Shown: in pieces, positions 1,807 through 30,951 of the stretch
Position numbering within the stretch: the first letter of the stretch is position 1
Layout: every line of letters starts with the position of its first letter
NCBI RefSeq assembly: GCF_001548095.1
Contig: NZ_AP014815.1
Location: forward strand, 3,099,656 to 3,163,655
Source of the DNA: Geminocystis sp. NIES-3708
Lineage (GTDB): Bacteria > Cyanobacteriota > Cyanobacteriia > Cyanobacteriales > Cyanobacteriaceae
Length of the DNA: 64,000 nucleotides
Direction of reading: 5' to 3'
Program-made: the position numbers and the translations under genes
The notes under the pieces: model-generated
The model's database searches: none
The model's input: only the letters and a program-made list of their open reading frames with translations
What the model was told of the DNA's origin: nothing

Positions 1807-2694
1807 TTACGGTACGATCATCGAACCAATACCATCATCTGTAAAAATTTCTAGTAACAAAGCATGGGGTAATCTTCCATCAATAATATGTGCCGCTTTT
1901 ACTCCTTGAGCTAGCGATCGCACACAACAATTGACTTTGGGAATCATGCCACCGCTGACAACTCCTTCATCAATTAAATCTCTTGCGTCTTGAATAGAAA
2001 GTTTATAGAGTAAAGTAGAAGGATCTTTATAATCTTCTAAAATTCCGGGTGTATCAGTAAGTAAAATTAATTTTTCAGCACCTAAAGCGGCGGCAATTTC
2101 TCCAGCTATGGTATCAGCATTGATATTATGAGCTTGACCTGTATGATCAGCCGCAACACTAGAAATAATTGGAACATAACCACTTTTAACTAAAGAGTCA
2201 ACTAAGCTACTATCAACGCTGAGGACTTCTCCCACAAAGCCAACCTTTTCCCTATCAACGGATCTGGCTTGGACTAAATTACCATCTTTACCACAGATGC
2301 CGACTGCTCTACCTCCAGCATTATTCACCATAGTTACTAATTCTTTATTAACACGACCCACTAGCACCATCTCGACTACATCCATAGTAGCCGCATCGGT
2401 CACTCTTAAGCCATCTTTAAATTGAGGTTCAATACCTAATTTTGTCAACCATGTGTTAATTTCCGGTCCACCACCATGAACAACGACAGGGCGAACTCCC
2501 ACAGAAGCCAAAAAGACAATATCACGGATAACATATTCTTTGAGAGTACTATCTTTCATCGCCGCACCACCGTATTTAATAACGATCGTACGCCCTGAAA
2601 ATTTTTGTATATAAGGTAAGGCTTCACTTAAAACTCTAACTCTCGTGGCTTCTGTTTCTTGTATATACTCGCTTTCTTTTTTATCCTTTGTCAT
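1807..2694 (-). CDS. argB: Acetylglutamate kinase
   Basis: This enzyme phosphorylates N-acetyl-L-glutamate with ATP, the second and controlled step of arginine synthesis in the cytoplasm. The 295-residue product has the amino-acid-kinase fold. KYGGAAM near residue 40 is the phosphate-binding lysine loop, VHGGGPEIN near residue 75 binds substrate, and [12 protein letters not shown] near residue 190 is the conserved nucleotide/substrate segment. The N-terminal helix (about residues 12-30) is typical of the hexameric, arginine-inhibited type. In cyanobacteria this type is activated by the PII protein; that is family knowledge, not visible here. The ATG at 2692-2694 is unambiguous. It is a single gene; the next gene upstream (gdhA) is over 300 bases away. 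Confidence 0.96.
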
Positions 2695-3008
2695 ATTTTT
2701 TATTAACTTTATTTCTCAAAAAATTACATTACTGAATAAGGTGACATAAAAATTGTTCATAGATAGCTTTTTTATGTACTTAATAAGCTAAAAATCTCCA
2801 GAAAAACCATAAAATACCTGAGTTCGATATAAATTTTTTAGGAAAGATTAGACGACAAGACTAAAAAACAACAAGAGAATTGACTTAAAAAATATTAAAA
2901 TTGATTTTAGACAATTATTTATCAAATTGAATTTTCTTCGGTGGGTAAAAGTTGGTATATCATCAGTCTTAAATCCTTCTTTTTCAAAGTTTTTTAGGTT
3001 ATGAATTG
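2695..3008. other. Intergenic region with an 18-bp dispersed repeat
   Basis: This 314-base stretch lies between gdhA and argB, both on the minus strand. At 2816-2833 it carries ACCTGAGTTCGATATAAA, identical to the left end of a MITE-like element at 49988-50005. No matching right end is obvious here, so it may be a solo end. The rest is AT-rich with no credible reading frame. Confidence 0.5.
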
Positions 3009-4295
3009 TTAAATACCTTGATAATAATCTCTTGTACCTTTTGCTGACATTGCTTCATTTAAACGATTAAGAGCATTAATATAAGCAGAAGTACGCATAT
3101 TAACGCCAAATTCTTGAGAAATACGCCAAACAACTTCCGTTTCCTCAATCATTCTTACTTTAAGTCTTTCCTGAACTTCTGTTAAACTCCAATATAAACC
3201 GTTACGATTTTGTACCCACTCCAAATAACTAACAGTTACTCCTCCAGCATTAACAAGAATATCAGGAAAAACATGAATACCTTTAGTATTTAAAATAGCA
3301 TCTGCAGAAGAAGTAATTGGACCATTTGCTACTTCAAATATATATTTTGCTTTAACGTCATGGGCATTTTTTTCGGTGATTTGTTTTTCCAATGCCGCAG
3401 GAATTAAAACATCAACATCAAGAGTTAATAATTGTTCATTAGTAATTACTTCATGATCAATAATATTGCAAACACTGTCTTTACAGTAAACCCCAGTAAC
3501 GGTGAGATGATTTTGCTTGTATTGACGAATACTAGGAATATCTAAACCTTGGGAAGCATAAATTCCCCCTTGAGAATCACTAACGGCGACGACTTTATAA
3601 CCTGCTTTATTGAGTAGTTGTGCTATCTGTGCTCCAGCATTACCAAAACCTTGCACTGCAATAGTTGTTTTTTCGGGAATCTGACCAAATTTGGGTAAAA
3701 CAGTATTCATGACATGAAAAGCACCAGTCGCCGTAGCAGTGTCTCTACCTTGACTACCACCCATGGTTAAAGGTTTTCCTGTTACCACACCGGGGGAAAT
3801 ACGACGACGAATAATACTATATTGATCCATCATCCAACCCATAATCATTTCGTTGGTATAAACATCTGGTGCGAGAATATCGACATCTGTGCCAATAAAA
3901 TCAGCGATGGCTTCAATATAACCCCTACTTAATCTTTCTAACTCAGCCCTAGATAATTCTTTTGGGTTAACAGTAATACCACCTTTAGCCCCACCAAAAG
4001 GAAGATTCAATAAAGCACATTTAAAAGTCATCCAAAAAGCTAAAGATTGCACTTCATCAAGAGAGACAGAAGGATGATAACGAACTCCACCTTTACCTGG
4101 TCCTCTAGTATCATCATATCGTACTCGATAACCTTGAAAAATTCTCAACGAACCGTCATCCATACGTACGGGAATAGAAACACTAAGACTAGCTTTAGGA
4201 TATTTCAACCTAGAAAACGCATCGTCAGAAATTGATACATATTTCAAAGCCTGTTCTAATCTGACACTAGCATCTGCCAATAAAGATTGAGACAT
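3009..4295 (-). CDS. gdhA: Glutamate dehydrogenase (Glu/Leu/Phe/Val family)
   Basis: It catalyses reversible NAD(P)H-dependent amination of 2-oxoglutarate to glutamate in the cytoplasm. From ATG 4293-4295 the product is 428 residues, the length I know for cyanobacterial GdhA. An upstream TTG/ATG extension to 4355 would add a Lys/Asn-rich tail and is less likely. The dimerisation/catalytic domain contains PFGGAKGG with the catalytic-site lysine at about residue 104. The Rossmann domain carries VQGFGNAGAQ near residue 215. The C-terminal part (VNAGGVTVSYLEW) is the conserved family block. The gene lies just upstream of argB in the same direction, and dnaX sits 72 bases upstream, but separate promoters are plausible. 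Cofactor preference cannot be read safely. Confidence 0.93.
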   Translation of the reverse strand: MSQSLLADASVRLEQALKYVSISDDAFSRLKYPKASLSVSIPVRMDDGSLRIFQGYRVRYDDTRGPGKGGVRYHPSVSLDEVQSLAFWMTFKCALLNLPFGGAKGGITVNPKELSRAELERLSRGYIEAIADFIGTDVDILAPDVYTNEMIMGWMMDQYSIIRRRISPGVVTGKPLTMGGSQGRDTATATGAFHVMNTVLPKFGQIPEKTTIAVQGFGNAGAQIAQLLNKAGYKVVAVSDSQGGIYASQGLDIPSIRQYKQNHLTVTGVYCKDSVCNIIDHEVITNEQLLTLDVDVLIPAALEKQITEKNAHDVKAKYIFEVANGPITSSADAILNTKGIHVFPDILVNAGGVTVSYLEWVQNRNGLYWSLTEVQERLKVRMIEETEVVWRISQEFGVNMRTSAYINALNRLNEAMSAKGTRDYYQGI

Positions 4296-27334: not shown

Positions 27335-28918
27335 ATGACAGCAACTCTCACTGATGAGAAAAAAAGTGACGATAAAAAAATATCTTTAAAAATAGGTATT
27401 CCTAGGGAAATTTATCCTAACGAGTGTCGAGTTTCCGCTACTCCCGACACGGCGACTAAATTACAAAAACTTGGTTTTACCATTTTAATTGAAACTCAAG
27501 CAGGAGAAAAAGCTAGTTTTAGCGATCGCGTCTATGAAGAAATTGGGTGTAAAATTATTCATAATAAAAAACAATTGTGGCAGGAAGCTGACATTATTTT
27601 AAAAGTGCGTCCTCCAGAGCAAGAAGAAGTAAACTTATTAGATAGCAAGAAAACCTTAATTAGTTTCATCTATCCCGCTCAAAATCCCGAGTTATTAAGA
27701 GAATTATCGGATAAAAAAGCAACAGTATTCGCAATGGATGCTGTGCCTAGGATTAGTCGGGCTCAAAAATTAGATGCTTTATCTAGTATGGCAAATATTG
27801 CAGGGTATCGAGCCGTAATCGAAGCAGCAAATAACTTTGGTAGGTTTTTTACAGGGCAAATTACGGCGGCGGGAAAAGTGCCTCCTGCGAAAGTATTAGT
27901 TATAGGTGCTGGGGTTGCAGGTTTAGCCGCTATTGGCACGGCTAAAAGTTTAGGGGCTATTGTTAGGGCATTTGATACTAGATTAGTAGTTAAAGAGCAA
28001 ATTGAGAGCTTAGGCGGTGAATTTTTAGAATTAGAATTTGCTGAAGATGGCTCAGGGGAAGGAGGTTATGCTAAAACCATGAGTAAGGAATTTATCGATG
28101 CGGAAATGGCTTTATTTGCCGAACAAGCCCAAGAAGTTGATATTATTATCACTACTGCCTTAATTCCGGGTAAACCTGCCCCGAAACTCATTACTGAGGC
28201 GATGGTGAGTAGTATGCGTCAAGGTTCGGTGATAGTTGACTTAGCCGCCGAACAAGGGGGTAACTGTGAGGTTACAAAACCTAACGAGGTTTATAAATAT
28301 AACGGTGTCACCATTGTCGGTTTAACAGATTTACCCAGTCGCATGGCAAGTCAATCTAGTCAGCTTTACGGCACAAATTTATGGCATTTACTCAAGGATA
28401 TGGGCGGTAATGATAATTTTACTGTTAATCTTGAGGATGAGGTGATTCGAGGTGCGTTAGTAACCTATCAAGGTGATGTGACTTTTCCACCTCCCAAAAT
28501 TGCTCAACCTTCTCCCACTACCACCGTTAAACCAGAAGTGAAAATCGTTACTTCTGAGAGTAAAAAAGAGAAAAAAAGTAATAGCGGTTTATTGTGGGCA
28601 GTTTTAGCAGTTTTAGCTTTAATTGGTATCGGCATTGGTGCACCTTCTTCTTTTCTGTCTCATTTTACTGTCTTTATTCTCGCAGTATTTGTCGGTTGGC
28701 AGGTGATTTGGAATGTTACCCCTGCTTTGCACACGCCGTTAATGAGTGTAACTAATGCGATTAGTGGCATTATTATCATCGGTGGGATGTTACAAATTTC
28801 TGGTGAATTAACTTCTCCTACTACTATACTTGGTGCGATCGCTATTTTAGTTGGTACTATTAATATTTCTGGGGGATTTTTAGTTACTCAGAGAATGTTA
28901 AAAATGTTTAGGAGATAA
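27335..28918 (+). CDS. pntA: NAD(P) transhydrogenase subunit alpha
   Basis: With PntB it forms the membrane-bound proton-pumping transhydrogenase that exchanges hydride between NADH and NADP+. The 527-residue protein combines domain I, related to alanine dehydrogenase, with the membrane part. Key parts are [16 protein letters not shown] at the N-terminus, the Rossmann loop [17 protein letters not shown] (near 190), [14 protein letters not shown] (near 300), a Pro/Ser/Lys linker, and hydrophobic helices from about 425 on. Many cyanobacteria split this into two genes; here it is a single one as in E. coli. pntB follows after 590 bases that contain a gene relic, so the two may not be a simple operon. 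Confidence 0.94.
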
Positions 28919-28920
28919 GT

Positions 28921-28941
28921 TAACAATTAACAATTAACAAT
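28921..28941. repeat. Heptamer tandem repeat (TAACAAT)3
   Basis: Three perfect direct units just after the pntA stop codon. Same unit as at 38693-38716. Confidence 0.8.
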
Positions 28942-29037
28942 ATTAATCGAGATATAGATGTAATTTTTAAAGATAATTAAAACAACAGTAATAATTAGAT
29001 TAGGAAAAAGAAATATTAACAACGGCTACGGCAATTT

Positions 29038-29275
29038 ATGGAGGGTAATTTACCTTTAGTTTTAGATGCTTTAATTTTTTGTAAACGAATTGTTGAAATT
29101 ACTAAAAACATAAAAAAGATTTTATTCAAGATTAAAAAACCCAAACCGCAGTTACTTATCGAATTTCTGTTTTAGGTGAAGCCATAATACTAATTTAACT
29201 AGAATTTTATCAAGAATATACCCAAATTCTTTATAAATAAATTATCGGGAAATAAATATTTTTAATATCTATAAA
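29038..29275 (+). pseudogene. Decayed HepT-like (DUF86) toxin gene
   Basis: From ATG 29038 the sequence reads MEGNLPLVLDALIFCKRIVE and continues with ITKNIKK. It then shifts by one base near 29110-29120, after which a second frame reads KDFIQD-stop-KTQTAVTYRISVLGEAI, then -LEFYQEYTQ, a stop and IIGK. These blocks line up in order with HepT/DUF86 HEPN ribonuclease-type toxins: an N-terminal helix, the KDF-D-KT block, a Y/V-RI-IGEA helix, the LSPEF-QQ-HP segment and IIGMRN. Several stops and at least one frameshift make it non-functional. The partner nucleotidyltransferase (MntA) is not visible upstream. It separates pntA from pntB. Identification is from pattern reading and needs a frame-tolerant search. 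Confidence 0.6.
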
Positions 29276-29508
29276 AAGGCTTTTATTTCTTATTTAGTTA
29301 ATATTGATTATTTTATTTTTTAATGACTAAATTATGTTTAAGTATCTCTATTTCATATAAATTTATGTTTTACAATAAATAAAAATCAGCAAATACAGAT
29401 ATTTTTAACAGATTCTTAACAATTAAACACCCATAAATTGCATAACCTATTGTTAGAGCATTATTTATTCTCTATTGTCAATTACTCAAACTACGAAATT
29501 AAATATTT

Positions 29509-30951
29509 ATGACAAGTAACCTCATTACCGTTGCGTATATCGCCGCCAGTGCCTTATTTATTCTCAGTCTAGCAGGTTTATCTAACCAAGAAACCGCAGG
29601 AAAAGGTAACATTTACGGTATTGCAGGGATGGCGATCGCATTTATAGCTACTGCTTTTAGTGCTGAGGTGACAAATTACGCAACCCTCATTACTGCCATT
29701 ATTCCTGCGGTTATTATCGGCTCAATTTTAGCCTCTAGGGTAGCAATGACATCCATGCCTGAATTAGTGGCAATTTTACATAGTTTTGTCGGTTTAGCCG
29801 CCGTATTAGTGGGTGTCGGTAACTATTTACAACCAGCATCTGGCTTAGTTGGTGCTGAAGAATTTATCCATCAAATCGAAATTTATATCGGTGTCTTCAT
29901 CGGCGCAGTGACTTTTACAGGTTCGATTGTTGCCTTTGGTAAATTACGTGCGATAATTAGCTCAAAACCTCTCATGTTACCTGCTAGACATTTTCTCAAC
30001 TTGGGGATGTTAAGTGCAACAATTTATTTCGGATATGCCTTTCTTAACAGTGAATCTGGCTTACAACCATTATTAATCATGACTGGTATTGCTTGTTTAT
30101 TGGGTATTCACCTCGTGGCGGCTATAGGTGGTGCGGATATGCCAGTAGTTATTTCCATGCTAAATAGTTATTCAGGATGGGCTGCTGCCGCCGCAGGTTT
30201 TATGTTAAGTAACGACTTGTTAATCATCACGGGTGCGTTAGTTGGTAGTAGTGGTGCAATTCTGAGTTATATTATGTGTAAAGCCATGAATCGTTCCTTT
30301 ATCAGCGTAATTTTAGGCGGTTTTGGAGAAGGAAGTGGAAAATCTACTGCTTCATCAACTACTGAGGAAGTTGGGGAAGCGGTAGCTACCAATATTGATG
30401 AAGTTGCCGATTTATTGGTTAATGCTAAAAGTGTGATTATCACCCCTGGTTATGGTATGGCAGTCGCTCAAGCTCAACACGGCGTTTCGGAAATTACTAA
30501 GATTCTCAAAAGTCGTAGAGTGAATGTGCGTTTTGGTATTCATCCTGTCGCAGGGCGTTTACCCGGTCACATGAATGTTTTATTAGCTGAAGCAAATGTG
30601 CCTTATGACATCGTTTTAGAAATGGATGAAATTAACGAAGATTTCCCCACAACTGACGTAGTTTTGGTTATCGGTGCGAATGATACTGTTAATCCTAGCG
30701 CATTAGAAGATCCCAATAGTGCAATCGCTGGTATGCCTGTATTAGAAGTATGGAAAGCAGAAACCTCCATTGTGATGAAACGCAGTTTAGCCAGTGGTTA
30801 CGCCGGAGTAGATAACCCTTTATTTTATAAAGAAAATACAAGAATGCTTTTTGGTGATGCTAAGGTAAATATTGACTCATTGTTAGTGGCATTGAGAGAA
30901 AAAACCAGCAAAAAAGGTAAAGCTGAAGATAAAGTTTTAGTTACCGCCTAA
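29509..30951 (+). CDS. pntB: NAD(P) transhydrogenase subunit beta
   Basis: A 480-residue partner of PntA. The first ~270 residues form about eight membrane helices (e.g. [28 protein letters not shown]) that carry the proton path. The C-terminal domain III binds NADP(H): [52 protein letters not shown] and [17 protein letters not shown] are all intact. Length and motif order are as in the family. Its ATG at 29509 follows an AT-rich leader with no clear ribosome binding site. A strong terminator lies 20 bases downstream. Confidence 0.95.

Follow-up and report, generated by a model that had tools for sequence, protein, structure and literature searches.

The genes for the alpha and beta subunits of the NAD(P) transhydrogenase, pntA and pntB, are separated in Geminocystis sp. 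NIES-3708 (the source genome, labelled G000; the compared genomes are labelled G001, G002 and so on) by a gap in which a sequence-only reading of the window, the whole stretch of 64,000 nucleotides analysed here, had placed a fragment of a HepT-like toxin gene. What this gap contains, and how its contents came to lie between the two genes, is the question that the locus raises. Our analysis suggests that the gap very probably holds a dead type VII toxin-antitoxin module, mntA-hepT, which the ancestor of G000 and G001 would have acquired between pntA and pntB, and that a later deletion fused its hepT gene to a gtrII-type gene.

Layout of the pntA-pntB gap

Both host genes are intact. The open reading frame of pntA (27335 to 28918, plus strand) codes for 527 aa and carries the Pfam domains AlaDh_PNT_N, AlaDh_PNT_C and PNTB_4TM, while that of pntB (29509 to 30951, plus strand) codes for 480 aa, with a PF02233 match of 649 bits and the Pfam domain PNTB. 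These ends leave a gap of 590 bp (28919–29508), the length that had been claimed, with a G+C content of 21%. AACAATT-type short repeats, seen in the sequence itself, follow immediately 3' of the pntA stop (28919 to 28942), and similar short repeats stand after pntA in the other six genomes of the family in which the pair is adjacent (by eye).

The hepT remnant

The hepT fragment that had been placed at 29038 is homologous to the hepT genes of relatives and starts at that coordinate, with an ATG; DNA and frame-tolerant protein alignments recover residues 1–72 of the toxin on the plus strand (29038 to 29249). The proposed end at 29275 could not be retained, as the homology stops earlier, at 29249–29267 depending on the comparison: at 29249 against the HepT protein and DNA of relatives and at 29257 against the DNA of the relic in G001, with which the protein match reaches 29267. 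The frame-tolerant alignment scores 158 (highest value among 100 resampled gaps 52; reverse strand of the gap 33) and contains one frame change and three in-frame stops, which agrees with the stops and the frameshift described earlier. At the DNA level, collinearity between the gap and the mntA-hepT pair of G008 and G011 extends over 313–329 bp, with a best local alignment score of 227.5 (1000 Markov-resampled gaps: mean 33.6, s.d. 4.0, maximum 54); that pair sits elsewhere than the pntA-pntB gap. These nearest copies (L216 in G008, L217 in G011) have disrupted hepT frames in both assemblies and adjoin an lpxA-like gene and a PIN-type pair (by eye).

A frame-tolerant search with the HepT/DUF86 profile had been suggested as a check, the lack of any match to be counted against the reading. 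With both hepT frames read through and X placed at the breaks, PF01934 gives 21.9 bits (E 1.5e-4), and the second frame alone gives 18.2 bits (E 0.0021), both under the curated cut-off of 23.5; because the profile does match after frame-tolerant reading, that objection falls away. The first frame alone gave no PF01934 match and the second frame no NCBIfam match. A PF01934 search of the G000 genome returned six matches, the relic not being among them, and the relic was found through its similarity to that of G001 (58% over 52 aa, E 6.7e-12), an instance of how genome profile searches can miss relics that relatives reveal. As judged from the alignments, the identity of hepT is proven by the relatives rather than by the profile.

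The relic of G001, a member of the same genus (PF01934 65 bits, three stops), is 79.7% identical in DNA to that of G000 over 172 bp. It is longer, lies in the same gap, and the gap begins at another point of the module. On either side of the relic in G001 (L147, gap after pntA, 2451–3262) stands a direct copy of the pntA 3' end (27 aa identical) together with about 127 nt that follow it, two copies in all. The idea that the hepT relic was copied from another HepT of the same genome finds no support, the best G000 match of the G001 relic being the gap itself (47.3 bits) and the others listed being weaker.

The HEPN active-site motif RX4-6H (RX4H in HepT), which we take to be the hallmark of the toxin, is kept in the G001 relic, in G012 and in G049; the G000 relic ends where the motif begins and lacks its H. 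A functional HepT would need an open frame and this motif, and the G000 relic has three stops, a frame change and a break-off at the motif. It encodes nothing now and cannot act as a toxin.

The mntA remnant

Directly upstream of the toxin, and beyond the original hepT observation, we could identify the tail of the antitoxin gene. This mntA 3' remnant (28930 to 29048, plus strand) was delimited by a frame-tolerant alignment to the MntA of G008 and by DNA alignment. MntA residues from about 78 to 115 align at 28930–29039 with one frame change and two in-frame stops, and the tail ends at a stop of its own (29048), downstream of the hepT ATG at 29038, so that the two remnants overlap. Its left edge overlaps the AACAATT repeats, and about 10 bases there are uncertain. 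The score against the G008 MntA is 94 (null maximum 62 of 100) and that against the G012 MntA is 29, a value reached by 63 of 100 nulls; on these scores, only comparison within its own lineage reveals the tail. A functional MntA would presumably need the nucleotidyltransferase motif GS...DxD as its hallmark, and only residues from about 78 to 115 of the 117-residue G008 protein are matched. A candidate mntA remnant in the G001 gap was rejected, with its score of 42 inside the range of nulls computed for the G000 gap.

Chance resemblance in an AT-rich spacer would be suggested by the base composition of the gap and by Pfam scores under the cut-off. However, the observed scores were reached by none of the 1000 (DNA) or 100 (protein) resampled gaps, the antitoxin tail lies in the right order and overlaps the start of hepT, and a relic of the same lineage occupies the same gap in G001. 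We therefore consider chance refuted.

The gtrII remnant and its junction with hepT

The hepT remnant is followed, on the minus strand and divergent from pntB, by the 5' remnant of a gtrII-type glucosyltransferase gene (29250 to 29316), which has lost its start codon and contains stops in frame. Its assignment comes from a DNA score of 115 against a null maximum of 55.5 of 2000 (run on 29250–29338) and from the intact gtrII gene (PF14264, 101 bits) that adjoins pntB, likewise divergent, in G004, where pntA lies at a distance of about 800 kb. The gtrII gene of G003 is on another contig than pntB, and no gtrII match was obtained in the remaining 13 of the 15 family genomes searched.

Homology to hepT runs straight into homology to gtrII in G000. 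The ends of the alignments define a junction zone (29250 to 29257), in which the hepT homology to the G001 relic, extending up to 29257, and the homology to the gtrII-pntB region of G004, beginning at 29250, overlap by about 8 bases. The gap of G001 has no gtrII remnant. The presence of the gtrII remnant between hepT and pntB means that more than a toxin module stood there. The earlier statement that a toxin-antitoxin module was inserted and then decayed is consistent with the recognisable remnants of both mntA and hepT, and falls short in that more than one gene was involved.

Linkage of pntA and pntB in other genomes

Our first survey covered 60 genomes, 15 of them from the family of the source genome including G000 itself; pntB was found in 13 of these 15 (none for G009 and G014). 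The pair is adjacent in seven of the 13 (G000, G001, G002, G005, G006, G012 and G013), with gaps of 430–812 bp, and apart in the other six (G003, G004, G007, G008, G010 and G011). The claim that pntA and pntB are usually adjacent does not hold in the family, with adjacency in only these seven genomes. A second survey took in 166 genomes of the order, in which pntB was searched at E up to 1e-150: 49 gave a match, nine in the family and 40 outside it (a count that omits G024, which has a partial pntB), and 117 gave none. Of the 40 genomes outside the family, 38 have the two genes side by side (36 by the search, G039 by a pntA piece and G089 by reading the pntA end). As for the other two, G161 carries pntA and pntB on different contigs, and the flanks read there contain other genes, and in G020 the contigs end.

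Contents of the gap in relatives

An intact HepT-MntA pair was to be looked for in the pntA-pntB gap of relatives, and open pairs are indeed present in G012 (both genes open) and in G049 (hepT open), with damaged ones in G013 (premature stop in hepT) and G089 (hepT altered at its start). G012 belongs to the same family as G000 but to another genus, G049 belongs to another family, and G089 is likewise outside the family; in the latter two, mntA-hepT lies behind a gene of about 180 codons. The same protein of about 180 aa, which precedes mntA-hepT in G049 (L227) and G089 (L233), follows pntA in G161 (L235), and its G049 copy gave no Pfam match when scanned.

Apart from these modules and the hepT relics of G000 and G001, the gaps of the family hold a 23S_rRNA_IVP gene, which fills the gap in G002, G005 and, inverted, G006 and is over the Pfam cut-off in all three. 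Gaps longer than 400 bp were found in six of the 38 adjacent pairs outside the family (G036, G049, G089, G071, G094 and G165). That of G036 contains HicB-like, HicA, Phd-like and PIN genes, of which HicA and PIN are over their Pfam cut-offs and the other two below, and those of G071, G094 and G165 contain repeats and no known gene (by eye). A PemK/MazF-like frame (65.8 bits) lies on the opposite strand, downstream of pntA and less than 800 bp from its end, in G004 (L152).

The block upstream of pntB

A block upstream of pntB, ATTCTTAACAATT...ATAAATT..ATAACCT (29412 to 29458, plus strand), aligns in eight genomes, chosen for their similarity in that region, namely G000, G001 and all six with the pair apart. 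It is absent from the gaps of the other five genomes with an adjacent pair, G002, G005, G006, G012 and G013 (by eye). A −10-like TAACCT lies within it at 29443–29448, and from its conservation among the eight chosen genomes we infer that the block is a candidate promoter of pntB; a scan with the sigma-70 consensus listed no promoter at this place. Since the block is common to G001 and all six pair-apart genomes, pntB may be expressed alone, and to speak of the splitting of a core operon may overstate the effect. That description stands in so far as the remains lie between the two genes, and is not supported as regards the operon, adjacency being unreliable in the family.

The conservation of the pntB-proximal part of the gap could also indicate that the relic has been retained for a new role as a leader, a small RNA or a regulatory spacer for pntB. 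However, the conserved block lies outside the mntA-hepT relic, and the relic itself carries stops, frame changes and a truncation. The searches point the same way: Rfam (E up to 1) matched nothing in 28850–29560, and 28880–29520 contained no terminator-like site and 3 promoter-like sites, compared with a mean of 5.4 in shuffled sequence. We regard such a role as highly improbable.

Order of events

The module has the direction of pntA-pntB. The simplest order is that the module came in, with gtrII between it and pntB, and that a deletion fused both. The common ancestor of G000 and G001 would have received mntA-hepT between the two genes, toxin and antitoxin would then have been lost, and in G000 a deletion would have joined hepT to the gtrII gene formerly before pntB, leaving the 590 bp. 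Transcription of pntB probably starts from its own upstream block, which would explain how an inserted module is tolerated, and likewise a separated pair in relatives. G000 and G001 are grouped in the trees of pntA, pntB and both (support 0.67, 0.69 and 0.50), in which the genus is poorly resolved; this grouping fits one insertion without proving it, and one shared insertion is likely.

The order is not fixed. The pair is apart in G003 and G004, and an earlier separation followed by rejoining could explain both the gtrII remnant and the shared block upstream of pntB. In the main rival explanation, pntA with a truncated mntA-hepT and gtrII with pntB were separate places that a rearrangement brought together, the module never having been inside an intact operon. 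It would account for the direct passage of hepT homology into gtrII homology, and it agrees with the separation of the pair in six of the 13 family genomes, with the arrangement in G004 (gtrII divergent from pntB, pntA about 800 kb away) and with the pntB block being present in all six split genomes and missing from five of the seven adjacent ones (by eye). However, the hepT relic of G001 lies between pntA and pntB with no gtrII remnant, the pair is adjacent in 38 of the 40 genomes outside the family, and it is unlikely that chance would bring both genes back together with their order and direction unchanged. We consider rejoining possible but rather unlikely, and favour the insertion of the module between pntA and pntB followed by deletion.

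Independent insertions at the same site

In a HepT tree, the copies of G000 and G001 stand with those of G008 and G011, the copies of G012 and G013 with a copy of G004, and those of G049 and G089 in a third place; the tree, read for its topology, was built from 44 extracted stretches and six gap copies (two of them also among the 44). As they belong to other HepT lineages, the open pairs of G012 and G049 are parallel insertions and not the ancestor of the relic. Toxin-antitoxin genes or their relics occupy the gap in seven genomes, and in all seven they are oriented as pntA-pntB. The 15 family genomes contain 62 PF01934 matches, about one per 0.8 Mb, and three of the 62 are in the pntA-pntB gap (G001, G012 and G013).

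A control pair, which we take to be cysC and its DUF92-like neighbour, is adjacent in all 15 family genomes, and its gap exceeds 400 bp in two, with a ParE-like toxin gene in G009 and a long ORF in G012. The control is valid for the family only, the pair being within 2 kb in only 5 of 25 other genomes. A second control, feoA-feoB, was unusable, its genes standing side by side only in G000 and G004 among the 15. Disruption, as a gap of at least 430 bp or separation, affects pntA-pntB in 13 of 13 family genomes against 2 of 15 for the control pair, and the pntA-pntB counts are biased because the site was chosen for having a relic. As the ParE-like gene in the control gap shows, pntA-pntB is not the only co-directional pair of the family to have received toxin-antitoxin genes. 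It is a tentative and somewhat doubtful proposal that toxin-antitoxin modules of Cyanobacteriales dock, and breaks occur, preferentially at the pntA-pntB junction, where at least three HepT-MntA lineages (G000/G001, G012/G013 and G049/G089) and one HicBA plus Phd/PIN set (G036) would have entered independently, all directed as the operon. The reason would perhaps be that a module, once resident, resists deletion and keeps the transhydrogenase genes linked; another may be that pntB can have a promoter of its own.

Comparison with known systems

The remnants of G000 are homologous to both genes of the type VII system HepT-MntA (HEPN/MNT; PF01934 and PF01909), in which two small co-directional genes lie with the nucleotidyltransferase antitoxin first and overlapping the start of the toxin. 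Unlike in a functional system, the G000 genes are truncated and carry stops, and the toxin has lost the H of RX4H and the antitoxin its N-terminal nucleotidyltransferase part. Passages of PMC7641770 report MntA as an adenylyltransferase that acts on HepT and blocks its RNase toxicity.

A toxin-antitoxin module within the hox hydrogenase operon of Synechocystis sp. PCC 6803 is reported in parts of PMC4963859; elsewhere the paper describes a toxin-antitoxin dicistron that strain 6803 has and strain 6714 lacks, the surrounding genes of the latter forming one operon. As at pntA-pntB, the hox module is small and the cyanobacterial operon around it codes for an NAD(P)-linked redox enzyme. In contrast, the hox module is not described as decayed in those parts of PMC4963859, whereas the G000 module is dead and its hosts are pntA-pntB. 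As toxin-antitoxin genes inside cyanobacterial operons have already been reported, the G000 relic is another case of a known kind of event, not a new system. No report of the pntA-pntB case was seen in titles and abstract beginnings on the transhydrogenase, the pntA/pntB operon and HepT/MntA in cyanobacteria.

A single site presents every stage in parallel lineages, from the open pair (G012, G049) and the damaged toxin (G013, G089) to the long relic (G001), the short relic (G000) and separated hosts (six of 13). It therefore allows one to ask whether toxin-antitoxin modules settle where polar harm is absent, or whether they keep host genes linked, a protective role that PMC4963859 proposes for the hox operon.

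Repeats around the gap genes

The PF05635 (23S_rRNA_IVP / four-helix-bundle) gene of G002, G005 and G006 resembles the relic in being a small accessory gene in the same gap and differs in belonging to an unrelated family and, in G006, in its opposite direction. Similar short repeats in opposite orientation stand at its two ends in these genomes (L148, L154 and L155; by eye). MNT-HEPN modules are described as mobile in parts of PMC2701414. The repeats behind pntA and the inverted gene of G006 prompted the idea of a repeat-bounded mobile cassette, which was rejected as a general mechanism, as the flanks of other copies are not enriched. In 400-bp flanks the repeat motif occurs at 0.42/kb for 15 HepT loci and 1.25/kb for 16 IVP loci (five loci being omitted as too short), against 0.58/kb in control 20-kb stretches and 1.03/kb in the 64-kb window. 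Ten of the 16 motif counts in the IVP flanks come from the three pntA-pntB copies; the other 13 loci contribute 6, about 0.58/kb, the same as the control. The gaps of G094 (L230) and G165 (L231), two genomes of the same genus, consist largely of heptad-like tandem repeats, of the GAAGGTT and then the TTCAACC type, and measure 631 bp and 436 bp, respectively.
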